Source of the DNA: Clostridia bacterium
GTDB lineage: Bacteria > Bacillota > Clostridia > Christensenellales > Aristaeellaceae
Assembly (NCBI GenBank): GCA_030530315.1
Contig: JAUMVG010000025.1
Location: 1-43,766 of the forward strand
Direction: 5' to 3'
Length of the DNA: 43,766 bases
Part shown: in pieces, positions 2,247 through 16,493 of the stretch
Layout: each line of letters starts with the position of its first letter
Position numbering within the stretch: position 1 is the stretch's first letter
Made by a program: the position numbers and the translations under genes
Notes under the pieces: generated by a model
Told to the model about the DNA's origin: nothing
Databases searched by the model: none
The model's input: the letters and a program-made list of their open reading frames with translations, nothing else

Positions 2247-3629
2247 ATGATTTTGAAGAGCACTGCCGAACAGGTATTGAATGAGGCGCTGAAGACCGGC
2301 GGCGACTTCGCGGAGATCTTCTGCGAGGACCGGCGCAGCGGCGTGGTGGGCCTGGTGGACCGCCGGGTGGAGAACGCCTCCACCGTGCGCCGCCACGGCG
2401 CGGGCATCCGCGTGTACCGCGGGCTGAACAGCGTGTACGTGCACACCAACGACACCAGCCTCTCCGGCCTGACTGCCGCGGCCCGAAAGGCCGCCGACGC
2501 GGTCAGCGGCGAGGCCTGCGTGGGCGATATCCACCTGACCCAGAGCCTGACGGCCAACATCCACCCCGTCAAGGCCATGCCCATGGACGTGGCCGGCGCC
2601 CGCAAGGCCCAGCTGCTGAAGGACATGGACCTGGCGGCGCGGGACGTCTCCCCGGAGATCCACCAGGTGCGGGCCAATCTGATCTATTGGGACAGCGACG
2701 TGCTGATCGCCAACAGCGAGGGCCTGTACACCGGCGACCGTAGGGTGTACACCCGCATGGCCTGCTCGGCGGTGGCCGAGGGCGGCGGCGAGAGCCAGTC
2801 CGGCAGCGCCTCCCCCGGGGCGATGATGGGCTTTGAGCTGTTCGAGGGCCGCGTGGACGTGGCGGAGCAGGCCCGCAAGGCGGCCCGTCAGGCCGTGACC
2901 AACCTGCACGCCCAGCCCTGCCCGGCGGGCGTGATGCCGGTGGTGATCGACGGCGGCTTCGGCGGCGTCATCTTCCACGAGGCCTGCGGCCACTCCCTGG
3001 AGGCCGCCGCGGTGGCCTTCGGCAATTCGGAATTCGCCGGCAAGCTGGGCGAGGTGATCGCCTCTCCCATCGTCACCGCCGTGGACGACGGCACCCTGCC
3101 CGGGGAGTGGGGCAGCCTGAACATCGACGACGAGGGCACGCCCACCACCCGTCTGGTGCTGATCGAGGACGGCGTGCTGCGCAACTATATGATCGACCGG
3201 CTGAACGGCCGCCGGATGGGCATGGCACCCACGGGCAGCGGCCGCCGGCAGGACTACACCTTCGCCCCGACCTCCCGCATGCGCAACACCTACATCGCGG
3301 CGGGCAGCGACGACGAGGCGGAGATCATCGCCAGCTGCGGCGACGGCCTGTACGCCAAGAGCATGGGCGGCGGCAGCGTGAACCCCGTCACCGGCGAATT
3401 CAACTTCGCCGTGGCCGAGGGCTACCTGATCCGCGGCGGCAAGATCGACCGGCCCGTGCGTGGCGCTTCGCTGATCGGCCGCGGCTCCGAGGTGCTGCGG
3501 AAGATTGACCGCGTGGGCGGCAACATGTGGATGGCCCAGGGCATGTGCGGGGCGTCCAGCGGCTCGATCCCCACCAACGTGGGCCAGCCGATGATCCGCG
3601 TGACCGATATGACGGTGGGAGGTCGATGA
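2247..3629 (+). CDS. tldD: Metalloprotease TldD
   Basis: The product is 460 residues, the usual TldD length. TldD is the catalytic subunit of the TldD/TldE zinc peptidase, which degrades unfolded peptides and in enterobacteria trims the microcin B17 leader and the antitoxin CcdA. The metal-binding HExxxH motif appears as HEACGH (H244, E245, H249), followed by the conserved SLEAA and, later, NYMIDRLNGRRMG and the Gly-rich end of the family. The partner tldE follows and overlaps the stop codon, so the two are translationally coupled. The ribosome site is AAAGGAG. No RiPP precursor is visible nearby, so general protein quality control is the safer guess. Confidence 0.93.
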   Translation: MILKSTAEQVLNEALKTGGDFAEIFCEDRRSGVVGLVDRRVENASTVRRHGAGIRVYRGLNSVYVHTNDTSLSGLTAAARKAADAVSGEACVGDIHLTQSLTANIHPVKAMPMDVAGARKAQLLKDMDLAARDVSPEIHQVRANLIYWDSDVLIANSEGLYTGDRRVYTRMACSAVAEGGGESQSGSASPGAMMGFELFEGRVDVAEQARKAARQAVTNLHAQPCPAGVMPVVIDGGFGGVIFHEACGHSLEAAAVAFGNSEFAGKLGEVIASPIVTAVDDGTLPGEWGSLNIDDEGTPTTRLVLIEDGVLRNYMIDRLNGRRMGMAPTGSGRRQDYTFAPTSRMRNTYIAAGSDDEAEIIASCGDGLYAKSMGGGSVNPVTGEFNFAVAEGYLIRGGKIDRPVRGASLIGRGSEVLRKIDRVGGNMWMAQGMCGASSGSIPTNVGQPMIRVTDMTVGGR

Positions 3630-3631
3630 GC

Positions 3632-4996
3632 ATGGAGAGAAACGAGTTTATCGCCAAGTTGTTCCAGCGGGCCCGGGAGAAGGCGGGGCAGGCCCCGGAC
3701 TTCGCCTGCGAGGCCAGCTACAGCGCGGGCAGCGAATTTGAGGTGTCGGTGCTGAACGGCGAGATCCTGCGCTACAGCGTCGCCGACAGCGGCGGGCTGG
3801 GCTTCAGGGTGCTGGTGAACGGCAAAATGGGCTACGCCTCCACCCAGATCCTGGACGAGGCCGCCGTGGATATGCTGGTGGACGGCGCGCTGGAAAACGC
3901 CGCGCTGGTGGAGAGCGTGGACAGGCAGTTCATATTCGAGGGCAGCGAGCGCTATCCGGAGCTCGCGCTGTTCAACCCGGAGCTGGAGGCCCTGGACGCC
4001 GCGAAGAAGATCGAGATGGCCCGGGAACTGGAGAGGCTGACCCTGGCCCAGGACCCGAGGATCGTGCGCGTGGACGAGTGCGCGGTGTTCTCCACCTGCG
4101 CCGAGAGCGGGCTGGTGAACAGCAAGGGCCTGGACGTGAGCCAAAAGGGCAACCTGCTGGGCGGCTACGCCTCCGCCGTCGCCCAGGAGGGCGAGCAGGT
4201 GAACACCGGCTTCAAGGTGTTCTTTGTGATGGATCCCGGCAAGATCGACTTGGAAAAGGTGGCCCGCACCGCGGCCCAGGAGGCCCTGGCGGGGCTGAAC
4301 GCCGCGCCGGTGCCCTCCGGGAGCTATCGGGTGCTGCTGCGCAACGACGTGGCGGGTACGATGCTGAGCACCTTCTCCGGCGTGTTCTCCGCGGACAACG
4401 CCCAGCGCGGGCTGTCCCGGCTGAAGGGCCGGGAGGGGGAGAAGGTGGCCGCCGAGTGCCTGACGCTGATGGACAACCCCCATCTGGCGGACAGCGCCGC
4501 CTCCACGCCCTTCGACGGCGAGGGCGTGGCCACTGTGCCCAAGGCGGTGATCGAGGCCGGCAGGCTGAACACCCTGCTGCACAACCTCAAGACCGCCAAC
4601 AAGCAGGGCGTTGCCACCACCGCCAACGCCTCGCGGCCCGGCTACGCCGCGCCGGTGGGCGTGGCTCCCAGCAACTTCTACTTCAAGCCCGGCGAAGCGG
4701 ACTTCGACGCGATGCTGGAGCGGTTGGGCGACGGCCTGTTGATCACCGACATGCAGGGCATGCACGCCGGCGCGAACCCCATCACCGGGGACTTCTCCCT
4801 GGCGGCCAAGGGCTTTTCGGTGCGCGGCGGCAAGCTGGCGGAGCCGGTGGCCCAGATCACCATCGCCGGCAACTTCTACGAGGTGCTCGGCGCCGTGGAG
4901 GCCGTGGGCAGCGACCTGGAATTCCACGCGCCCGGCGCGAGCTGCTTCGGCAGCCCCAGCCTGCTGGTAAAGCAGCTGTCCGTGGCGGGGCTGTAA
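3632..4996 (+). CDS. tldE: TldE/PmbA family protein, TldD partner
   Basis: The product is about 454 residues and has the PmbA/TldE fold. It is homologous to TldD but lacks HExxxH, as expected for the non-catalytic subunit that forms the substrate channel with TldD. Recognisable parts are the GLGFRVLVNGKMGYAST segment near residue 60 and the C-terminal GDFSLAAKGFSVRGGK and ITIAGNFYEVL blocks. GGGAGG at 3617-3622 is nine bases from the ATG at 3632 but only three from an ATG at 3626, so 3632 is chosen. The 3626 ATG overlaps the tldD stop (ATGA) and would add two residues. A strong terminator follows. Confidence 0.92.
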   Translation: MERNEFIAKLFQRAREKAGQAPDFACEASYSAGSEFEVSVLNGEILRYSVADSGGLGFRVLVNGKMGYASTQILDEAAVDMLVDGALENAALVESVDRQFIFEGSERYPELALFNPELEALDAAKKIEMARELERLTLAQDPRIVRVDECAVFSTCAESGLVNSKGLDVSQKGNLLGGYASAVAQEGEQVNTGFKVFFVMDPGKIDLEKVARTAAQEALAGLNAAPVPSGSYRVLLRNDVAGTMLSTFSGVFSADNAQRGLSRLKGREGEKVAAECLTLMDNPHLADSAASTPFDGEGVATVPKAVIEAGRLNTLLHNLKTANKQGVATTANASRPGYAAPVGVAPSNFYFKPGEADFDAMLERLGDGLLITDMQGMHAGANPITGDFSLAAKGFSVRGGKLAEPVAQITIAGNFYEVLGAVEAVGSDLEFHAPGASCFGSPSLLVKQLSVAGL

Positions 4997-4998
4997 TG

Positions 4999-5049
4999 AA
5001 AAGAAGGATTCTTCACTTTCCTTTGGGATGTGAAGAATCCTTCTTTTTT
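4999..5049. terminator. Bidirectional terminator between tldE and the GDPD gene
   Basis: An 18-bp perfect stem pairs 4999-5016 (AAAAGAAGGATTCTTCAC) with 5030-5047 around a 13-base loop. It ends in a T-run on the plus strand and an A-rich start that gives a U-tract on the minus strand. It lies between convergent genes and serves both. Confidence 0.9.
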
Positions 5050-5081
5050 GATGCTTGCCCCCGGGCAGACGCGCCGCGCCG

Positions 5082-5921
5082 TCAGCGTGCGTCGCCGGCC
5101 TTTCCGGCGGGCAGGGCGCCTTTGCCCTCGAAGATGTTCATCTCGTGTCGCCGGGCCACCAGGGCGGCGAGGCCCTCGTCCCGCACGGTCCAGGCCGCCA
5201 TGGGGGTGTGGAACAGGAAGCGCTGGAAGTGGGGTGAGAAGAACCGGGGCGCGTTGGCGTCGTAGGCCACGAAGTCGGGCCGGGACAGGCAGTTCAGCAG
5301 CAGGCCCGCCATCACGAACCCGGCGATGGCGTTGACCTCCGGCCGGTAGCTGGGCAGCGGTCCCACCAGCTGCCCCCGCACGATGTGGGGCGCGTGCAGC
5401 CGGAACCAGGTCACGATCAGCGGGTTGAAGGACTCGACGATGTACTCGCCGGAGTAGTCCTCCAGCAGGTCCATCAGCGCCCGGCACAGCCGGGGGTTGC
5501 TGCCGCCGTTCTTCAGCTCGATCAGAAGGGGCGTCCTGCCGTCCACCGCGTCCAGTACCTCCCGGAGGGTGGGGATCCGCGCGTCCTCCCGGCCCGCCAG
5601 GGGGATCGCCTTGAGCTCGGCCAGGGTCAGCTGGCAGACCCTGCGGCTGTCGCCGCACAGGCGCAGGAGGTCGTTGTCGTGGAACACCACCACCTGCATG
5701 TCCTTCGAGAACTGGATGTCCAGCTCCATGCCGTAGCCGTTGTCCCGGGCAGCCTCAAAGGCGGGCAGCGTGTTTTCCACGATGCCGCGGCTGAGGTCGT
5801 GCAGCCCGCGATGGGCGAACTGTTGACCGCGCCAGCGATGTACCTTGTGCAAGTTCAGGCTGGGGTGGGTCAGGAAGGCGAGGACGGCCAGCAGCATGAT
5901 CAATATGATCCAAATGGACAT
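5082..5921 (-). CDS. Membrane-anchored glycerophosphodiester phosphodiesterase family protein
   Basis: The product has 279 residues. Residues 2-17 (IWIILIMLLAVLAFLT) form an N-terminal membrane segment, followed by a GDPD TIM-barrel domain. Catalytic features are visible: FAHRG, the VENT motif, the metal-binding MELDIQ and the VVFHDND general-acid region. GDPD enzymes split glycerophosphodiesters to glycerol-3-phosphate and an alcohol; the anchor suggests lipid or teichoic-acid-derived substrates. The start is the ATG after GGAGG with an eight-base gap; an upstream in-frame TTG at 5942 overlaps that site and is rejected. It lies downstream of, and probably in one transcript with, the MFS transporter gene. 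Confidence 0.9.
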   Translation of the reverse strand: MSIWIILIMLLAVLAFLTHPSLNLHKVHRWRGQQFAHRGLHDLSRGIVENTLPAFEAARDNGYGMELDIQFSKDMQVVVFHDNDLLRLCGDSRRVCQLTLAELKAIPLAGREDARIPTLREVLDAVDGRTPLLIELKNGGSNPRLCRALMDLLEDYSGEYIVESFNPLIVTWFRLHAPHIVRGQLVGPLPSYRPEVNAIAGFVMAGLLLNCLSRPDFVAYDANAPRFFSPHFQRFLFHTPMAAWTVRDEGLAALVARRHEMNIFEGKGALPAGKAGDAR

Positions 5922-5985
5922 AACCAGGGCCTCCGTTGGCAAAATTGGGATAGGGGCGTCGCGCGGACTCCTGGGCAGGACGAAC

Positions 5986-7251
5986 TCAGTCCTCCACGTC
6001 GAAATGCTCGATCAGCGTTTTCGCCGCCTGGGGGCGGTTGTCGCCGTGCTTGACGAACAGCATGGTCACAAAGGCCAGGGCGACGGCAGTCGTGGCGTAG
6101 GGGAACAGCGTGTGATAACCCACGTGCTCCAGGAGCCATCCGGAGAGGATCGGGGTGACGATCTGGGCCGCCATGGAGAAGGTGTAGTAGTAGCCGGTAT
6201 ACTTGCCCACGTCGCCGCTGAGGCTGATCTCCACCACCATCGGGTAGGAGTTGACGTTGATCGCCGCCCAGGCGAAGCCGATGACCACGAACAGCACATA
6301 GACCATGAAGCTGAACGTCTTGACCATGCCCGCCAGGGCGAAGCAGGCCGCCAGGATCGCCACGCCCACCAGTATCATCTTTTTGCGGCCAAAGCGGGAG
6401 GAGAGCATGCCCACCGGCACGTAGGAGACCACCGCGCCGCCGGTGGCGATCATCAGGCAGGTGGCGGCGCCGGACAGGTCGCCCCACATGCGGGTGAAGT
6501 ACTTGGAGTAGGCGGTGGTCACCGCGTTGTAGCCCATGTACCACAGCGACACCGAGCAGAGGATCAGCACCAGGCTGCGCATCTGCTCCGGGGGCAGGCG
6601 GCCGGTGGTGGCCTGCGCCTCCTCCGGGTCGGCGTTGGCCTGGCGCAGCGCGTTCTCCCGGACCCGCCAGACCAGCAGCGCCACCGACAGCGCCATCAGC
6701 GCGGCCACGGCGATGAATACAGGCGAGTAGTCGGCCCGCCCGTCGGGGTGGCTCTTCACCAGCAGCCGTATGGCGGCCAGGGCGTAGATGCCGCCCAGCG
6801 CGCCCATCAGGTTGATGATGGCGTTGGCCTTGGAGCGCAGCGGCTTTGGGGTGACGTCGGGCATCAGGGCCACCGCGGGGGAGCGATAGGTGCCCATGGC
6901 GACCAGCAGCAGCCCCAGCAGCGTGATGAACAGCGGGAAGCGCCCGGGCGCATCCGCGCCGCTGAGCGCCAGCGTCAGCGCCACGGCGCAGGCCGTGCCG
7001 CCGAGTATGTAGGGCATGCGCCGCCCAATGGGGGTGTCGGTGCGGTCGGACAGCTTTCCGAAAAGCGGCAAAAGCACCAGCGCCAGAACGTTGTCCGCCG
7101 CCATGATTGCGCCGGACGCGCTGTCGCCGATGTGGAAGGTGTCTCTCAGGATCAGAGGAATGATGGTGTCATACATCTGCCAAAACGCGCAGACGGAGAA
7201 GAAGGCCAGGCCGATCGTCAGTGTCCGGCGAGTGTTCAGTTTCACACGCAT
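5986..7251 (-). CDS. MFS transporter, sugar-type
   Basis: The product has 421 residues and about twelve hydrophobic segments typical of the major facilitator superfamily. The inter-helix 2-3 motif reads GKLSDRTDTPIGRRMPYI, close to the disaccharide and glycoside-pentoside porters of the SLC45/GPH type. A second copy (SRFGRKKM) starts the C-terminal half. Sugar transport fits the divergent beta-glucosidase gene, but the substrate is inferred. The ATG at 7251 lies almost on top of its GAGGG. A GTG two codons downstream (7245) has better spacing and may be the true start. Its promoter lies beyond the MITE-like repeat, so the leader contains the whole repeat. Confidence 0.85.
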   Translation of the reverse strand: MRVKLNTRRTLTIGLAFFSVCAFWQMYDTIIPLILRDTFHIGDSASGAIMAADNVLALVLLPLFGKLSDRTDTPIGRRMPYILGGTACAVALTLALSGADAPGRFPLFITLLGLLLVAMGTYRSPAVALMPDVTPKPLRSKANAIINLMGALGGIYALAAIRLLVKSHPDGRADYSPVFIAVAALMALSVALLVWRVRENALRQANADPEEAQATTGRLPPEQMRSLVLILCSVSLWYMGYNAVTTAYSKYFTRMWGDLSGAATCLMIATGGAVVSYVPVGMLSSRFGRKKMILVGVAILAACFALAGMVKTFSFMVYVLFVVIGFAWAAINVNSYPMVVEISLSGDVGKYTGYYYTFSMAAQIVTPILSGWLLEHVGYHTLFPYATTAVALAFVTMLFVKHGDNRPQAAKTLIEHFDVED

Positions 7252-7273
7252 TCCCTCTTTCGTTTGGGCTGAT

Positions 7274-7439
7274 TTAGAGTGTGTTTCCAAATTCACCAAG
7301 ATGCATTTTTGATGTCTTGAACTGCATTTCTGCGTTGATTTCCCTTGACTTAGCGCCACTAAGCCTGCGGAAAATCGCCTTGAACTGCACTTCAATCCAC
7401 TCAAAGCTGCACATGTTTCATTTTGGAACCACACTCTAA
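7274..7439. repeat. MITE-like inverted-repeat element
   Basis: Terminal inverted repeats of 18 bp, TTAGAGTGTGTTTCCAAA (7274-7291) and TTTGGAACCACACTCTAA (7422-7439), differ by one base. The 166-bp interior is partly self-complementary, with a core CTTAG/CTAAG stem near 7350-7365 and GGGAAATC/GATTTTCC arms around it. It also holds two CTTGAACTGCA copies (7316-7326 and 7378-7388). There is no reading frame of note. It is AT-richer than its surroundings. Size, termini and palindromic interior fit a non-autonomous miniature transposable element; no target duplication can be shown, because the flanks extend the palindrome. Confidence 0.65.
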
Positions 7440-7467
7440 TTATACCGCAGAGCCCCGGAGAATGCAA
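7439..7467 (-). promoter_or_regulatory. Promoter of the MFS transporter gene
   Basis: Read on the minus strand: TTGCAT (7467-7462), a 17-base spacer, then TATAAT (7444-7439). Transcription would start near 7432, inside the right terminus of the inverted-repeat element. The leader of about 180 bases would contain essentially the entire element. Confidence 0.7.
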
Positions 7468-7508
7468 AGAGAATAGTGCCCTTTGGGGTGGATTTTTCCA
7501 TGGATACA

Positions 7509-7517
7509 TGCTATCAT
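7509..7517 (+). promoter_or_regulatory. Extended -10 element upstream of the beta-glucosidase gene
   Basis: TGCTATCAT is an extended -10 (TGnTATCAT, one mismatch to TATAAT). No good -35 lies 16-18 bases upstream, which is tolerated by extended -10 promoters. It would place the start of transcription about 30 bases before the GTG at 7555. Confidence 0.4.
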
Positions 7518-7554
7518 GTTGCCGGAAGCAGACTTTACCGGGGAGGGATGCCGC

Positions 7555-10113
7555 GTGCCCGCGCTGATGCTGCCCATTGAGAGAGTTTTCGACCCGGACG
7601 CCATCGACGCCCGCTTTTCCGTGTTCACCCGGCTGCCCGGCTACGTGGCGGTGATGGCCTTCGCGCCGGTGCGGGAGGGCTGCGGCCAGGTGACGGTGGA
7701 CGGCGTGGCGCTGACCCGCTGGGAGCCGATCACCGTCTACGGCCTCCAGCTGCTGCTGATCCCGGTGGGCGAGGTCGCCCGGGAACACGGCCGCAGCTAC
7801 CGCGTGGTCCTGGAGGGCTTCCGCACCCTCAAGGGCCGCCGGTTTCCCCGGTGCGCCTTCCGGCTGCGCACGTCCCTCAGGCGGGCGCGCCTGCCGGAGT
7901 ACGACGCCAACGACGCCCAGGCCCTCGAGGCGGCCCGGGAGGGCATGGTGCTGCTGAAGAACGACAACGGCGCGCTGCCCCTGCCGGCGGATGCCACGCT
8001 GAACTGCTTCGGCCGGGGCCAGCACCTCTGGCGGGTCAGCGCGGCGGGGGCCTCGATGATCAATCCCCGGTGGAAGCCCGGCCTGCACGAGGCGGTGGCG
8101 GAGCACAGCGGCTTCACCCTCAACGAGGAGCTTTCCGAGCACTACCTGGACCCCAGGGCGGGGCTGCCGGACGCGGAGACGCTGGCCCGGGCCCGGGAGA
8201 GGAGCGACTGCGCGCTGGTGTTCATCGAGCGCCACTCCGGGGAGATGCAGGACAACCGGCTCAAGCCGGGCGAGTACGCGCTGACCGAGGGTGAGCGGGA
8301 GATGCTGGCCGCGGCGCGGGCGAACTTCTCCCGGGTGATCGTGATCCTCAACGCCGGCTATCCCATCGCCATGGACTGGTTGCGGGAATGCCCGGTGGAC
8401 GCGGTGCTGTACGCCGGGTACGCGGGCATGCTGTCCGCCTGGGCGCTGGTGGAGATCCTGGACGGGCGCACAAACCCCTCCGGCCACCTGCCGGATACCT
8501 GGCCCTGGGCCTTCGCGGACAACCCCGTCAGCCGCAACTTTCCCATGCCGGACCCGGACGCGCCCTATGTGCCGGAGGACGCCGTGGGCGTGCGGGTGTA
8601 CTACGAGGAGGACGTCTATCTGGGCTACCGCTATTTTGACACCTTTGGCGTGCCGGTGGCCTTTCCCTTCGGCCACGGGCTGAGCTACACCCGCTTCGAG
8701 CTGGAGCCGGTGGGACTCGAGCGCCGCAGAGGCGCGGTCGTGGTCCGCGTGCGGGTGAAAAACGCCGGCCAGCGGGCGGGAAAGGCGGTGGCGCAGCTCT
8801 ATGTCCAGCCGCCCCAGGGGCGGCTGGAGAAGCCGGTTCGGACGCTGGCAGGGTTCGAGAAGACCCGGCTGCTGGCGCCGGGGGAGGAACAAACGCTGGA
8901 GATCACCGCCCGGTACGCGGATATGGCCTCCTTCGACGAGGAGCGCTCCGCCTGGGTGCTGGAGGCCGGGGAGTACGCCCTGAGCGTGGGGGAGAGCCTC
9001 GCGCGGCGGGTTCCCTGCGGCAGCCTGCAATTCGCCGAGCCGCAGGTGCTGGAGGAGGTCCTGCCCCTGGGCGCGCCGGTGGAGCGGATCGACCGACTGA
9101 CCCGGGAGAGCCCGGAGGTCAAGGGCGGGCGCTCCGGCATGGTGCCCCTGGGCGAGCAGATTGCCGTCGCCGCGCCGAGGATGGCCTATGCCCCCGCGCC
9201 GCTGCGCCGATCCGGGCGGCGGGTGCGCTGGGGAGAGGTCGTCAGGGATCCGAAGAAGCTGGAGGCCTTCGTGGCCCAGCTGTCGCTTTACGAGCTGTGC
9301 CGGCTGAACGTCTGCGGCGGCAGCCGCTGGATGCCCTGGCAGGACGGCGCGGCGGGCTTCACGCCCCGTCTGCCGTGGCGCGGCCTGCCCTCCTTCGTGG
9401 TGGCGGACGCCAACGCCGGGTTGAACCTCAAGCGGCCCAACATCGGCTTTCCCGCCAGCAGTGTCATCGCGGCCACCTTCAACCGGCAGATCGCCTATCA
9501 GGTGGGCCGGGTGATCGCTTCGGAGTGCCCGGAGCACGGCGTGTGCCTGAACCTGGGACCGGCGATGAACCTGCACCGCAGCCAGCTCTGCGGGCGGCAC
9601 CCGGAATACTTCTCCGAGGACCCGCTGCTGACCGGCGAAATGGCGGGCTGGCAGGGCAAGGGCCTGGTTGAGGGCGGCGTCGGCTGCTGCTACAAGCACA
9701 TGTTCTGCAACGGCAGCGAGCTGGGGCGGCTGGGCAGCCACAGCGTGGTGTCGGAGCAGGCGCTCCGGGAGCTGTACCTCCGGCCCTTCGCCATCGCCTT
9801 TGGGGTGCAGAAGCCCAGGGCCGTGATGACCAGCTACAACGCCCTGAACGGGCTCTACCCCGGGGAGAACGCGGCGCTGCTGCAGGGGCTGATCCGCGGC
9901 GAGTGGGGCTTTGACGGCGCGATCATGTCCGACTGGGGCAGCTACCGCACCGTGGACGCCGTGGAGATGGTCAGGGCGGGCAACTGCTGGATCACCCCCG
10001 GAGGCCGGAAGTGGGTCTGGCGCGTGTGGCGCGCCGCCCGCCGGGGAGGGATCGACCGGGCGGTGCTGGAAAACAACGTGAAGGCGCTGCTCAAGGGCCT
10101 CGCGGGGCTGTGA
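7555..10113 (+). CDS. Beta-glucosidase, GH3, with permuted domain order
   Basis: The product has 852 residues and no signal peptide, so it is a cytoplasmic glycoside hydrolase. The usual GH3 order is reversed. The alpha/beta sandwich comes first (REGMVLLKNDNGALPL, then ERHSGEMQDN with the acid/base Glu), followed by the fibronectin-III-like domain (FPFGHGLSYTRF, then LAGFEKTRLLAPGE). The TIM-barrel comes last (LNLGPAMNLHR, then the nucleophile Asp in GAIMSDWGSY near residue 793). This permuted layout is known from Ruminococcus albus and Butyrivibrio beta-glucosidases. The start is the GTG with GGAGGG seven bases upstream; an ATG at 7516 overlaps the probable -10. It is divergent from a sugar-type transporter. 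Confidence 0.92.
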   Translation: MPALMLPIERVFDPDAIDARFSVFTRLPGYVAVMAFAPVREGCGQVTVDGVALTRWEPITVYGLQLLLIPVGEVAREHGRSYRVVLEGFRTLKGRRFPRCAFRLRTSLRRARLPEYDANDAQALEAAREGMVLLKNDNGALPLPADATLNCFGRGQHLWRVSAAGASMINPRWKPGLHEAVAEHSGFTLNEELSEHYLDPRAGLPDAETLARARERSDCALVFIERHSGEMQDNRLKPGEYALTEGEREMLAAARANFSRVIVILNAGYPIAMDWLRECPVDAVLYAGYAGMLSAWALVEILDGRTNPSGHLPDTWPWAFADNPVSRNFPMPDPDAPYVPEDAVGVRVYYEEDVYLGYRYFDTFGVPVAFPFGHGLSYTRFELEPVGLERRRGAVVVRVRVKNAGQRAGKAVAQLYVQPPQGRLEKPVRTLAGFEKTRLLAPGEEQTLEITARYADMASFDEERSAWVLEAGEYALSVGESLARRVPCGSLQFAEPQVLEEVLPLGAPVERIDRLTRESPEVKGGRSGMVPLGEQIAVAAPRMAYAPAPLRRSGRRVRWGEVVRDPKKLEAFVAQLSLYELCRLNVCGGSRWMPWQDGAAGFTPRLPWRGLPSFVVADANAGLNLKRPNIGFPASSVIAATFNRQIAYQVGRVIASECPEHGVCLNLGPAMNLHRSQLCGRHPEYFSEDPLLTGEMAGWQGKGLVEGGVGCCYKHMFCNGSELGRLGSHSVVSEQALRELYLRPFAIAFGVQKPRAVMTSYNALNGLYPGENAALLQGLIRGEWGFDGAIMSDWGSYRTVDAVEMVRAGNCWITPGGRKWVWRVWRAARRGGIDRAVLENNVKALLKGLAGL

Positions 10114-10121
10114 GGATGGAA

Positions 10122-10144
10122 GGACCGCTCCGGGAGGGCGGTCC
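10122..10144 (+). terminator. Hairpin after the beta-glucosidase gene
   Basis: GGACCGC (10122-10128) pairs with GCGGTCC (10138-10144). There is no U-tract, so termination would be weak. It is followed by a stronger hairpin at 10171-10214. Confidence 0.4.
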
Positions 10145-10170
10145 TCAGACCGCTGACAAAGTCTGCAAAC

Positions 10171-10214
10171 GCAAGAATCTCTGCCGACGAAGAAGAACAG
10201 GCAGAGATTCTTGC
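10171..10214 (+). terminator. Long perfect hairpin downstream of the beta-glucosidase gene
   Basis: GCAAGAATCTCTGCC (10171-10185) and its exact complement (10200-10214) form a 15-bp stem around 14 bases. The tail TTGCTGTGTT is only modestly U-rich. It probably ends or processes the beta-glucosidase transcript. Confidence 0.55.
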
Positions 10215-10370
10215 TTGCTGTGTTGGCTGCGCCTGCAAAATGCGGTCACTTACGACCGGGTAAGCTCCCTTTTTTGCAGGCTTGCCGCCTTGCCTTGCAG
10301 GTTTTTCAGCAGTCTGTCAGTCTGTTGTCTATTCACGTCGTTGAGGTGGTTTCATGAGATACTTTTTGCG
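10215..10370. other. Gene-free stretch with one further structured segment
   Basis: No open reading frame with a ribosome site is seen. CTGCAAAA (10233-10240) can pair with TTTTGCAG (10272-10279), enclosing a smaller CGGTC/GACCG stem (10243-10258). The rest is T-rich and leads into the promoter at 10371. Confidence 0.4.
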
Positions 10371-10399
10371 TTGAAGTATTGTTTGCTCCATGGTATAAT
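10371..10399 (+). promoter_or_regulatory. Promoter of the ParB-HAD / HAD operon
   Basis: TTGAAG (10371-10376), a 17-base spacer and a perfect TATAAT (10394-10399). Transcription would start near 10406, about 40 bases before the ATG. Confidence 0.85.
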
Positions 10400-10447
10400 T
10401 CATATTGGCCAGGTTAGCGGACCGGGCACTCTGAATAAAGGAAAAGG

Positions 10448-11344
10448 ATGAACATGGCTGAATCCAAGACGAGCTTCCAGCTCTTTCTGGAAGGTGAGGT
10501 CAATCGATACAAGGGCGTATATGTGCCCGTAAAGACCGCCTTTCTCAAGCGCGCCTTTGTCAGGGAGCTGCCCGTAAAGAAGCTGCATCCCAACCCGGAA
10601 GACGAATTCTGCGATCCCCAGATAGGGCCCAATGACGAGATCGTTTCCCGCTATCAGCACGAGATTTGGGTGGCAAAGAAGCAAAGGCGGATCAGAGAAA
10701 TCGAAGAGGATCTGATCGTTGAAAGGATCCGCCCGGACGGGTATATACTGCTGAACGGACACCACCGTTGGGCGGCGGCCAAGCGCATGGGCCTGCGCAG
10801 GGTGCCGGTCAGGATCGTCAATCTGACGCATTCCAGCGACATCAAGAAAATGCTGAAAAACGCGAAGCACGACAAGAGGGTCGCCCTGGATTTGGATGAA
10901 GTCGTATTTGCCTCCGGCCAGGACACGGCGATGGAAAAGGCGCTGCCCTTTCCTGCCAACAGGGTGTATAAGGAGCGCCTGCGCTACGGCGTGCCCGCGC
11001 TGATCCGATATTTCAAGACCAATGGGTACGATGTCTGGGTATACACGGCAAAATACTATTCCATGGAATATATTCAGCACCTCTTCAAGTGGTACGGCGT
11101 GCGGATCGACAACATCGTGACGGGCACCTCCCGAAAGGGCAAGGCGGACGCGGAGGAAAGGAAAAGGCTGGAGACCCTGGTCACCCGGAAGTACCCGCAG
11201 ATGATCCACCTGGACGCCAACTCGCTGGTGCGTATCGACCGCGGCACAAAATCGTTTGAGGAATTCGCGCTGTCGGGCAACCCCCGGACATGGTCCCAGG
11301 AGATCATGGAGATCGTTGGAGGGGCTGAGAAGCATGAAGGATAA
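10448..11344 (+). CDS. ParB-like domain fused to a HAD-type phosphatase domain
   Basis: The product has 298 residues. Residues about 35-125 form a ParB/sulfiredoxin-like domain: a strand with LPVKKLHPNP, a long helix and the nucleotide-site-like LNGHHRWAAAKRMGLRRVPVRIV (NGHHR at 103-107). Residues 143-290 form a HAD-like domain with motif I LDLDEVVF (D148, D150) and motif II VYT (T200). The motif IV position reads HLDANS (D256), lacking the usual second Asp. The HAD half is clearly paralogous to the next gene's product. The start ATG at 10448 has AAAGGA five bases upstream; an ATG at 10454 is also possible. Codon use looks less GC-biased than in the neighbours. Function unknown; a nucleotide- or nucleic-acid-related role is inference. 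Confidence 0.82.
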   Translation: MNMAESKTSFQLFLEGEVNRYKGVYVPVKTAFLKRAFVRELPVKKLHPNPEDEFCDPQIGPNDEIVSRYQHEIWVAKKQRRIREIEEDLIVERIRPDGYILLNGHHRWAAAKRMGLRRVPVRIVNLTHSSDIKKMLKNAKHDKRVALDLDEVVFASGQDTAMEKALPFPANRVYKERLRYGVPALIRYFKTNGYDVWVYTAKYYSMEYIQHLFKWYGVRIDNIVTGTSRKGKADAEERKRLETLVTRKYPQMIHLDANSLVRIDRGTKSFEEFALSGNPRTWSQEIMEIVGGAEKHEG

Positions 11345-11843
11345 AGTGCCCGGGCAGAAGATGCGCATATCCTTTGACCTGGATGAAGTGCTGTTTGTGT
11401 CCCCGGAAACCCATAAAACGGAACCGCCCCTCGCCTTTCCCTTTAACAGGCTGTATCAGGAGCGGCTCCGCCTGGGCACGCCGGAGTTGATCAACACCCT
11501 GCAATCCCTGGGCTATGAAGTGTGGGTCTACACGTCCTCCTTTCGATCGGAAGGCTATATCCGCAGGCTGTTTCAGCACTATGGCACGCGCTTTGACGGG
11601 ATCGTCAACGGAAATCGGCACCTTCGGGAGGTTCAGCGGGACCAAAAGACCATCCTGCCCCAAAAGCTGCCCAACCACTATCGCATATCGCTGCATGTGG
11701 ACGATGAAACCGTCATCTGCACCCTGGGCGGACAGTATGGCTTCCGCACCTACCAACTGGATGCGCAGGACGATGACTGGGTGAAAAAAATCATAGCCCG
11801 CGCCGACGAAATCAGAAAACTGACACAGTACGAACGAAAATGA
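11334..11843 (+). CDS. Stand-alone HAD-like phosphatase, paralogue of the upstream fusion
   Basis: The product has 169 residues. Motif I is FDLDEVLF (D15, D17), motif II VYTSS (T67), a candidate motif III Lys lies in QKTILPQK near 105-111, and motif IV is a full HVDDET (D123, D124). No large cap insertion is present. It aligns through most of its length with the C-terminal half of the preceding protein (FPFNRLYQERLR versus FPANRVYKERLR; YEVWVYT versus YDVWVYT). Its start overlaps the upstream gene by 11 bases and uses GGAGGGG nine bases ahead, so the two are coupled. Related HAD folds include deoxyribonucleotidases, but the substrate cannot be told from sequence. Confidence 0.82.
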   Translation: MKDKVPGQKMRISFDLDEVLFVSPETHKTEPPLAFPFNRLYQERLRLGTPELINTLQSLGYEVWVYTSSFRSEGYIRRLFQHYGTRFDGIVNGNRHLREVQRDQKTILPQKLPNHYRISLHVDDETVICTLGGQYGFRTYQLDAQDDDWVKKIIARADEIRKLTQYERK

Positions 11844-11868
11844 GGTTCTTTACGAAAATTGGGGAAAT

Positions 11869-11894
11869 GCCGTTGGCCTTCATTGACCAACGGC
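11869..11894 (+). terminator. Hairpin after the HAD operon, first of two
   Basis: GCCGTTGG (11869-11876) pairs with CCAACGGC (11887-11894). No U-tract follows; the stronger terminator is 28 bases further on. Confidence 0.5.
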
Positions 11895-11921
11895 GTCAAA
11901 AGAGACGGTTTACAGACTGCT

Positions 11922-11959
11922 TCGGCTCTTTCCCGGATTTCCGTGAAGAGCCGATTTTT
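11922..11959 (+). terminator. Intrinsic terminator of the HAD operon
   Basis: TCGGCTCTT (11922-11930) pairs with AAGAGCCGA (11946-11954), followed by TTTTT. It ends the two-gene unit before the convergent ABC exporter genes. Confidence 0.85.
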
Positions 11960-11984
11960 GTACTTTGAAAAACGGGCAATGCGC

Positions 11985-12716
11985 TCAGCGCTTCCCGCCC
12001 CGCATGCAGCGCAGGAAGGCCCAGGCCGCCATGGCCAGCAGAATGGCGGCGCAGGCGGCCACGGGCGGCAGATGACCCCAGACGCCGGGGCGTCCGGCGG
12101 CGGCGGCGCGGGCGGCCTCCACCGCGTGGAGGAAGGGCAGGGCATTGGCGACCGCGGCGAAAGCGCCGCCCACCAGGCGCACGTCGAACCAGATGCCGCT
12201 CAGCCAGGCGGACAGGTTGGTCAGCAGCGCGCCGCAGACGCCGCCCACCTGCTTTTCGTTCAGGAGGCTGCCGAACAGCAGGCCCAGGGCGATGTAGAAC
12301 ACCGCGCTGACCATCAGCACGGCCAGCGTGCCGGGCAGGTGCGCCAGGGAAAAGCCCAGCGGGGCGCCGGCCAGCAGGCAGAGCAGCGCCTGGAGCAGCG
12401 CCAGGGGCAGCAGCGGCAGCGCGTAGCCCAGCATGAAGTCCGCGCCGGTCATGGGGGAGGCCATCAGCCGCTGGGTCAGCGCCGAGGCGCGGTCCTTGGC
12501 GATCAGCAGCGCGGCGAACAGCGTCAGGAAGGACTGGCCGAACACGGCGATGGCCGGGGTCAGCGCGCTGATCTCAAACAGCGGCACGGGGACGCTGCGC
12601 TGTATGGCGCTCAAAAGGCCCAGCAGCACCAGCGGGAACGCCGCGCCGAAGAACAGCGTCAGCGGGTCCCGGATGAGTTCCATGAGGTTTCTTTTCGCAA
12701 AGGCAAGCATTCTCAC
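11985..12716 (-). CDS. ABC-2 type transporter permease
   Basis: The product has 243 residues and about six hydrophobic segments after a short cytoplasmic N-terminus (FAKRNLMELIRDPLTLFFG is the typical first part of an ABC-2 permease). It is the membrane half of a drug-, peptide- or lipid-type exporter with the ATPase encoded just upstream. The chosen GTG start overlaps the ATPase stop (GTGA) and has AGGAGG seven bases ahead; an ATG two codons later has poor spacing. It is the last gene of a four-gene minus-strand operon with a DUF3021 protein and a LytTR regulator. The substrate is unknown. Confidence 0.85.
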   Translation of the reverse strand: MRMLAFAKRNLMELIRDPLTLFFGAAFPLVLLGLLSAIQRSVPVPLFEISALTPAIAVFGQSFLTLFAALLIAKDRASALTQRLMASPMTGADFMLGYALPLLPLALLQALLCLLAGAPLGFSLAHLPGTLAVLMVSAVFYIALGLLFGSLLNEKQVGGVCGALLTNLSAWLSGIWFDVRLVGGAFAAVANALPFLHAVEAARAAAAGRPGVWGHLPPVAACAAILLAMAAWAFLRCMRGGKR

Positions 12717-15665: not shown

Positions 15666-15739
15666 TGGAATAAGGGGACGGTTCCTTATTCCATAATTGA
15701 CGGACTGATTAGTGGAATAAGGAACCGTCCCCTATTCCA
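15666..15739. repeat. Left palindrome pair of the RAYT element
   Basis: Two near-identical copies of about 27 bases in inverted orientation: 15666-15693 (TGGAATAAGGGGACGGTTCC plus TTATTCCA) and 15713-15739. They share GGAAC/CGTCCCC cores, and together they form a long imperfect hairpin. The stop codon of the transposase gene lies inside the second copy. The same sequence frames the other end of the element. Confidence 0.85.
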
Positions 15740-16493
15740 TTTTGGTAAACCGGAATATGGTCGTGGAGGGTATGCCGGTGAGGCGGGCGATCTGGGCGAT
15801 GGTCAGGTGAGCCTGGCGCAGCCGAACGACGCAGTCACGCTGGGTGGCCTTGTCCAGCTGGCGGAAGGCTTCCGGGGTCTTGCAGTGGGTGAGCTCCGAG
15901 GCGACGGCGGCGGCCTTTTCGTCACTGAGGTGGACGGCTCTCGGATGCTCGTCCAAGGCGCGATCCGTATTCTGCTGGCACAGATAGTCGAGCAGCGCCG
16001 CGCGATCCGTGAAGAAGCCGTCGGCGAAGGCGGTGTCGGTGAGGAAATCCTCATTGCCGCTGTAGTGGGCATAGCTGCTCCAGGGCCAGCTGCCCGGTAC
16101 TTTCTCCAGCCCCGCCTTCATCGGGTTTTGAAGGATATAGCGCAGCACGGTCAGGAAGTAGGCATCTTCCTCCACAGGCTCGCTCCTGTAGCGATCCTGG
16201 AACAGGTGGCCGACCCGCTCGTACTTCATGTTGTACCACCAAACAAAGCGGCTGCCGATGCGCTTGATGATCTTCTCCAGCGGCTCGTTCCGCACATGGA
16301 TCAGCAGGTGGACGTGGTTGGGCATCAGACACCAGGCGTACAGCTCAAATCCGCTGAGCTGCTTGCAATCCGACAGGGTGCGCACAAAGCGGCGGTAGTC
16401 CTCATCGTCCATGAAGATTTGCTGGCGATTGATGCCGCGCAGCATCACATGGTAGGTGTCTGTGGCGCTTAGCCTTCTCGCGCTTCTGGGCAT
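15732..16493 (-). CDS. REP-associated tyrosine transposase (RAYT), IS200-like
   Basis: The product has 253 residues and the Y1 HUH fold of TnpA-REP proteins. It shows LYAWCLMPNHVHLLIH with the HxH metal motif (H60, H62), and VLRYILQNPMKAGL with the likely catalytic Tyr (Y119), followed by a WPWSS motif. The C-terminal 60 residues carry a helix-turn-helix-like segment (TIAQIARLTGIPSTTIFRF) that probably recognises the flanking palindromes. RAYTs act on single-stranded REP sequences and are tied to REP spread. The gene seems intact. It is flanked on both sides by matching palindrome pairs, making a unit of about 920 bp between pfkA and the radical SAM gene. AAGGA precedes the ATG. Confidence 0.9.
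   Translation of the reverse strand: MPRSARRLSATDTYHVMLRGINRQQIFMDDEDYRRFVRTLSDCKQLSGFELYAWCLMPNHVHLLIHVRNEPLEKIIKRIGSRFVWWYNMKYERVGHLFQDRYRSEPVEEDAYFLTVLRYILQNPMKAGLEKVPGSWPWSSYAHYSGNEDFLTDTAFADGFFTDRAALLDYLCQQNTDRALDEHPRAVHLSDEKAAAVASELTHCKTPEAFRQLDKATQRDCVVRLRQAHLTIAQIARLTGIPSTTIFRFTKME

Follow-up and report, generated by a model that had tools for sequence, protein, structure and literature searches.

SerK, a ParB-fold enzyme, is reported to phosphorylate free serine using ADP (PMC5120207), some ParB-domain proteins are reported to have nuclease activity (PMC5512222), and Tox-ParB domains are described as carrying a conserved DGHHR motif (PMC3482391). SpoIIE/RsbU-type phosphatases, in turn, are reported to act on STAS proteins (PMC11418112). 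A 2025 survey of ParB-CTPase-fold proteins leaves open which processes many lineage-specific ParB fusions regulate, and its main text names no HAD fusion (PMC12704722). Here, we describe a ParB-HAD fusion and its partner, encoded in a stretch of 43,766 nucleotides (nt) from a Clostridia bacterium (contig JAUMVG010000025.1), referred to below as the window. Gene A encodes the fusion, and gene B, which overlaps it, encodes a small HAD protein.

The best explanation that we can offer, and we offer it tentatively, is that A and B form one heteromeric enzyme, a nucleotide-gated phosphatase that would be accessory to partner-switching signalling. Catalysis would lie with B, as a small HAD phosphatase in which the four HAD motifs are complete. 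A would be the regulatory subunit: its degenerate HAD part would dock on B, and nucleotide binding (of ADP, ATP or CTP) by its ParB/SerK-type GHHR domain would gate or feed the phosphatase. In many relatives, the unit may be an accessory of a partner-switching module made up of an unannotated family, C, together with STAS and SpoIIE/RsbW. The two genes and their parts are as follows.

10448-11344, plus strand: gene A, 298 amino acids (aa), with a ParB/Srx-type (sulfiredoxin-type; GHHR class) N-terminal domain and a HAD-type C-terminal domain.
10586-10840, plus strand: ParB/Srx-type part of A, residues ~47-131, with HxNxxDEF, GPxxxI and NGHHRWAA; invariant columns in 21 sequences.
10877-11317, plus strand: HAD-type part of A, residues ~144-290, with the DLD motif kept.
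11334-11344, plus strand: overlap of A and B, 11 nt, as the sequence-only reading of this DNA had described.
11334-11843, plus strand: gene B, 169 aa, a small stand-alone HAD with the complete motifs D15xD17, T67, K111 and D123 D124.

The HAD part of A is 35% identical to B (profile-profile probability 100, E 4e-42). Moreover, all 21 A-HADs lie on one side of a tree branch with support 100/100, with B and four distant solo B proteins opposite; thus, one duplication suffices, in agreement with the proposed origin of the pair. The 21 A sequences exclude the decayed copy of genome G023 (L004/L045) and L005, in which A is open over the last 93 aa only, and the 24 B sequences exclude the fragments L048 and L049, the decayed L045, and L102. 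Motif roles (I-IV) were assigned by position, after the HAD scheme DxD, T/S, K and DD, and the columns of A-HAD were matched to B through the profile-profile alignment. In B, residues D15, D17, T67, K111, D123 and D124 are invariant in 24/24 full-length sequences; L102, a shortened B relative, lacks the DD. In A-HAD, D148 and D150 of motif I are present in 21/21 sequences and motif II is S or T in 19/21. The motif III column facing K111 (column 244) contains Lys in only one of the 21 sequences, and two of the 21 have Lys at column 243. In motif IV, D256 is present in 20/21, and column 257, which faces D124, is D or E in 3/21 and is mostly Asn or Ala. Because A-HAD has lost the motif III Lys and the second motif IV acid while B kept both, the two are not equivalent. 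The earlier description of B as the same HAD alone therefore holds in so far as B is a stand-alone paralogue, and fails on equivalence, A having lost two catalytic motifs. By its residues, the HAD of A looks like a pseudophosphatase subunit. Finally, B is better conserved than A: in alignment A2, the 11 rows other than solo B proteins are 65-80% identical to the B of the window and two solo B proteins are 43-45% identical to it, against only 42-56% for A. Taken together, two paired and overlapping genes, one duplication and two HADs of which one is intact and the other degenerate agree with a heteromer that has A as the regulator of B.

The predicted model of B, of middling quality (mean predicted local distance difference test score (pLDDT) 55), has a HAD-like fold, and no Pfam match of B reaches its cut-off. 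Its strongest named match is PHROG 415 'polynucleotide kinase' (13/14 members, best E 4e-9); in Pfam, NIF, of the C-terminal domain (CTD)-phosphatase type, matches 8/14 members and HAD_PNKP 2/14, all weakly. These matches raise the alternative that the pair processes nucleic-acid ends, with the ParB domain cutting or sensing nucleic acid and B acting as a 3'-phosphatase of the polynucleotide-kinase type. The PHROG match, the two weak HAD_PNKP matches and the nuclease activity reported for some ParB-domain proteins count in its favour. However, NIF matches more B members than HAD_PNKP does, PADLOC is blank for B, and the identified recurrent neighbours of the pair (C, STAS, SpoIIE, HATPase, MatE and an ABC transporter) are non-nucleic-acid genes, some neighbours being unannotated. 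We consider end processing unlikely.

The N-terminal domain of A carries NGHHR at residues 103-107, invariant in 21/21 A sequences. The SerK model matches all 21 (best E 8e-10), yet A cannot be counted as a full-length SerK, scoring 30.8 bits for the protein of the window against a curated cut-off of 380. Pfam ParB_N matches at E 2e-4, under the Pfam cut-off, and the profile matches in the PDB are SerK and SbnI, with only the second half of the domain aligning well. The GxxR-type motif of the ParB_N domain is phosphate-binding. The layout of A differs from that of canonical ParB partition proteins in that a HAD part follows the domain and no helix-turn-helix (HTH) match was found in Pfam. As the predicted AlphaFold model of A failed (pLDDT 34, from a 2-row alignment), sequence profiles are the basis for the fold assigned to residues 35-125; they bear out the ParB/sulfiredoxin-like domain with NGHHR at 103-107 that had been proposed.

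Outside A, the class sample of genomes has its closest profile match to this domain in G772, where the tail of an RHS/pre-toxin protein scores 65 bits (all others at most 29) and has DEF..P.IGP..NGHHRW in common with A. This RHS/pre-toxin TG protein lies at L101:441-2314, and its ParB-domain tail ORF (open reading frame) is in a different frame from the RHS part. The DGHHR motif of Tox-ParB domains is found in A as NGHHR, with N replacing D; the Tox-ParB position, C-terminal in a secreted or RHS protein, differs from that in A, where the domain is N-terminal in a 298-aa protein. A single-domain ParB-like ORF of 114 aa with NGHHRW is also present on a viral contig (L051:7791-8135). Given its likeness to SerK, the RHS tail and Tox-ParB, we place the N-terminal domain of A in a GHHR branch that includes both a kinase and toxin tails. 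Its nearest relatives suggest nucleotide binding or phosphotransfer rather than substrate selection, and most likely the GHHR domain of A binds a nucleotide.

The likeness to SerK also admits an opposed pair, in which the GHHR domain of A would act as a SerK-type kinase on a hydroxyl group of a small molecule or of a protein. B, docked on A-HAD, would remove the phosphate, giving a reversible two-gene switch. Among named models, SerK is the one closest to the A of the window, and it is also the best PDB match of known activity; both the ADP-dependent phosphorylation of serine by SerK and the action of SpoIIE/RsbU-type phosphatases on STAS proteins count for such a switch. By contrast, the SerK score is ~31 bits against 380, and the domain aligns over its second half only; A is variable in the column that corresponds to the Glu of the PHE stretch of SerK, a residue that we take to be catalytic; and a complex that combines a kinase with the phosphatase undoing its work would be futile unless gated. 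We regard the opposed pair as unlikely.

We next turn to the distribution of A and B, for which the genome samples overlap (150 relatives, 396 of the order, 391 of the class and 209 of the phylum). Among the 150 relatives, 16 genomes match, that of the window included: ten have an intact A, one has a decayed copy (G023), two have a distant solo B, two have B fragments and one has another ParB-domain protein. The order sample gives matches in 28/396 genomes (6 with A and B, 1 with a B fragment and 21 with the ParB part only, E 4e-7 to 9e-4), the class sample in 9/391 at 1e-5 (5 with A and B, 3 with a solo B and 1 with the ParB domain only), and the phylum sample in 1/209, the genome of the window itself. 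In the combined samples, 19 genomes bear A (18 intact, G023 decayed) and B is present in 19/19, so the claim that A and B form a unit survives the refutation named for it, homologues that never occur as a pair. The two genes are adjacent in 16/19 genomes. Among the intact pairs (15 sampled genomes and L003, a named contig outside the 19 that is also included in the 21 A sequences), the overlap is 4-38 nt in 15/16, and 8 nt separate the two genes in the remaining one, if starts are taken from the ORF calls. A second A without a neighbouring B is found in G017 and G025, in surroundings where G010 carries A and B. The named relatives are uncultured Clostridiales genomes, and the pair is maintained in several bacterial families.

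At the same site as in the window, G023 has flanks that are 94-96% identical and a module that is only 87% identical, with both genes split over frames. This state fits a unit that comes and goes; alternatively, the split genes may reflect an assembly error. The G023 copy (L045, 8987-10430) lies beside ~5.6 kb of extra DNA (3368-8986) that is absent from the window and holds a 1860-aa ORF lacking a Pfam match. In two genomes, a GNAT acetyltransferase gene lies directly 3' of the distant solo B (L046:534-998, L047:3199-3648).

The sequence-only reading had speculated on a role in defence. PADLOC, run on the two proteins and not on the neighbourhoods, gives A no match beyond two weak ones to methyltransferases (E ~0.02) and gives B none; phage records hold no match for A or B, and plasmid records, searched with A only, hold none. 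Among viral contigs, B has no match and A matches only the 114-aa single-domain ORF. These results give a role in defence no support. They also bear on the alternative that A derives from a polymorphic-toxin domain by domestication and that A and B work as a toxin-antitoxin pair or in immunity between bacteria; the G772 RHS/pre-toxin tail, as the nearest outside domain, and the DGHHR of Tox-ParB would point to such an origin. However, A has no secretion or RHS part, neither protein matches phage and A matches no plasmid, and A occurs without an adjacent B, which a toxin-antitoxin pair would hardly tolerate; we consider this origin very improbable.

Most neighbours of A-B are common only to loci in the same surroundings. 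The exceptions are an ABC-transporter family (6 loci), an abundant kind of gene, and family C, which recurs most across sites and is linked to STAS/SpoIIE partner-switching genes. Family C (alignment A5) is unannotated, 177-225 aa long and present in single or double copies (for example L036:5545-6078, L040:11148-12300 and L140:6610-8124), with no convincing match in Pfam or PDB sequences. It lies within 5 kb of A or B in 10/24 loci, over four families, against 0.23 expected. In L036 and L038 it immediately precedes A, in L040, L107 and L108 it immediately follows B, and in L034, L095, L097, L098 and L103 it is no more than 5 kb away from the pair, A or B. Counted as about seven independent arrangements, the chance of at least 7/24 is 2e-9 in a rough model. 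By genome, C is present in 18/19 with A, in 3/3 with B remnants and in 0/5 with a distant solo B; in the order sample, C is found in 29/396 genomes, including 6/6 with A (p 9e-8 per genome, 5e-4 per genus). In 31 C-bearing stretches, which are part of the matches, a STAS gene adjoins C in 24 and lies inside the stretch in 26, and a SpoIIE-type phosphatase gene is present in ten. The order A, B, C, C, STAS, SpoIIE+HATPase, all co-directional, is found in L040 and L107, and with one C in L108; this co-directional order was seen in one genus. In the genome of the window, C genes lie on other contigs (L140-L142).

C was also considered as a relative of RsbW/HATPase, and this found no support in hhalign (probability 1.4, E 0.04), Pfam or PDB sequences. 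Perhaps C is a divergent anti-sigma or RsbW-like protein, for which an in-register N-terminal alignment is suggestive at most. A MatE transporter fused to HATPase_c_2 (RsbW-type) recurs near C (L040:7586-9559, L136:7481-9325, L145:7299-9140), and in L098 a sigma-70-family gene (10274-10759) has a B lacking A on one side and a double-C/STAS pair on the other.

A further alternative is an ordinary phosphatase for small molecules whose ParB-like extension is lineage-specific, the C/STAS surroundings being incidental. In its favour, neighbours vary between most sites, 14/24 A/B loci have no C within 5 kb, and in 4/21 A loci, the window among them, a promoter-like site with at least 9/12 matches lies within 110 nt. 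However, C in 10/24 loci over four families is far beyond expectation. Capless HADs, moreover, tend toward large substrates, which also counts against this alternative, and we give it little credence. Since many relatives have the unit beside the C-STAS-SpoIIE/RsbW module, the likeliest setting for a nucleotide-gated A-B phosphatase would be the control of a phosphorylated signalling component during stress.

Several observations weigh against this proposal. In G260, G331 and G679, A and B are separated, and two A copies lack an adjacent B (L035, L037), both in genomes that hold another A-B pair. With A modelled at pLDDT 34, its fold and the putative A-B interface are without model support. 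A-HAD keeps the DxD in 21/21 sequences, motif II in 19/21 and the first motif IV Asp in 20/21, and may thus have retained activity, and the best profile for B is 'polynucleotide kinase' rather than a protein phosphatase. The neighbourhood points to protein-phosphorylation signalling, whereas the best profile of B is of a nucleic-acid phosphatase type. Finally, C was chosen after being seen beside A, and the counts include loci from the same surroundings as well as related, non-independent genomes; G549 carries A-B without C; and the 43.8 kb of the window have no C, STAS or SpoIIE match.

In the window, A-B is flanked on one side by a GH3 glycosidase gene and on the other by an ABC transporter, and the unit has two further features.

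10371-10399, plus strand: promoter-like site TTGAAG-17-TATAAT, 10/12 matches, TG before the -10 element, 48 nt 5' of the ATG of A.
11922-11959, plus strand: intrinsic terminator, a stem-loop followed by TTTTT, -19.2 kcal/mol.

The site proposed as a consensus promoter is present; however, shuffles of region 10100-12050 give 1.1 such sites by chance against the one found, so only its position supports a sigma-70-like site. Over the A loci, no common promoter is apparent, and the sites differ. The terminator was confirmed, and the 121-nt region holding it has a folding z of -4.8; it is missing from the output of a pattern scan, probably owing to the 8-nt loop limit of that scan. The unit is AT-richer than its neighbours, as had been noted: its GC is 0.557 against 0.658 in the flanks, and 0/392 flank windows of unit length are lower. 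This is not general, as 6/21 measured A loci exceed their flank in GC. The A-B of the window is a self-contained two-gene operon that was probably acquired. A 322-aa antisense ORF over A (10400-11368, minus strand) was rejected as a gene candidate, being a high-GC shadow frame. The GH3 glycosidase (7483-10113) has a swapped domain order, with GH3_C (155-382), an Fn3-like domain (436-505) and the GH3 N-terminal domain (632-822). An IS200-like Y1 transposase gene lies at 15732-16493, and a relative of it (L003:6781-7524) lies directly 3' of B in L003.

In its most specific form, our proposal is that an active HAD and a pseudophosphatase paralogue with a SerK/Tox-ParB-type domain make up a nucleotide-gated phosphatase wired into STAS partner switching via C, which we consider rather unlikely as a whole. 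If true, it would place a second phosphorylation layer over the RsbU/RsbV/RsbW logic, with a toxin-type ParB domain recruited into signalling. If the C/STAS link holds, an unrecognised component would be added to a widespread bacterial stress switch. Among ParB fusions, A-B is a compact testable case, with a partner enzyme, an intact/degenerate paralogue split and a signalling neighbourhood. The ParB-HAD pair, the motif split and the link to C are absent from the matches listed in open-licence PMC literature (titles and abstract starts, supplements excluded). Each fold is known and the pairing of such folds would be a new variant built from known parts.

Compared with known systems, A is like the ParB-fold free serine kinases SerK and SbnI, its best named N-domain matches, in its GHHRW/GVHR-type motif and the following helix, and unlike them in its score (~31 bits against 380), its HAD fusion and its own invariant HxNxxDEF..GP motif. 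With Tox-ParB of polymorphic (RHS) toxins it shares the [DN]GHHR motif and, with the G772 tail, DEF..P.IGP..NGHHRW; unlike these toxins, A forms part of a small unit that lacks secretion parts, and it has a HAD both as a fused domain and as a partner. B resembles small HAD phosphatases (NIF/SCP CTD phosphatases, MDP-1 and the PNKP phosphatase) in fold, size and motifs, and differs in lying under every Pfam cut-off and in having as its partner a degenerate paralogue that is joined to a ParB-type domain. The genes of RsbU/SpoIIE-RsbW-STAS partner switching often adjoin A-B in relatives, although the pair of the window has no such neighbours; to our knowledge, none of A, B and C is part of a described system of this kind. 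As in the ParB-CTPase-fold fusions, a ParB-fold domain is joined to a lineage-specific domain in A, the HAD fusion not being among those named in the main text of the survey (PMC12704722). Finally, although the enzyme is a different one and the A-B complex is inferred only, A and B resemble AdoMetDC and its prozyme, described as an enzyme activated by a catalytically dead paralogue (PMC5201418), in that an intact and a degenerate paralogue are retained together.
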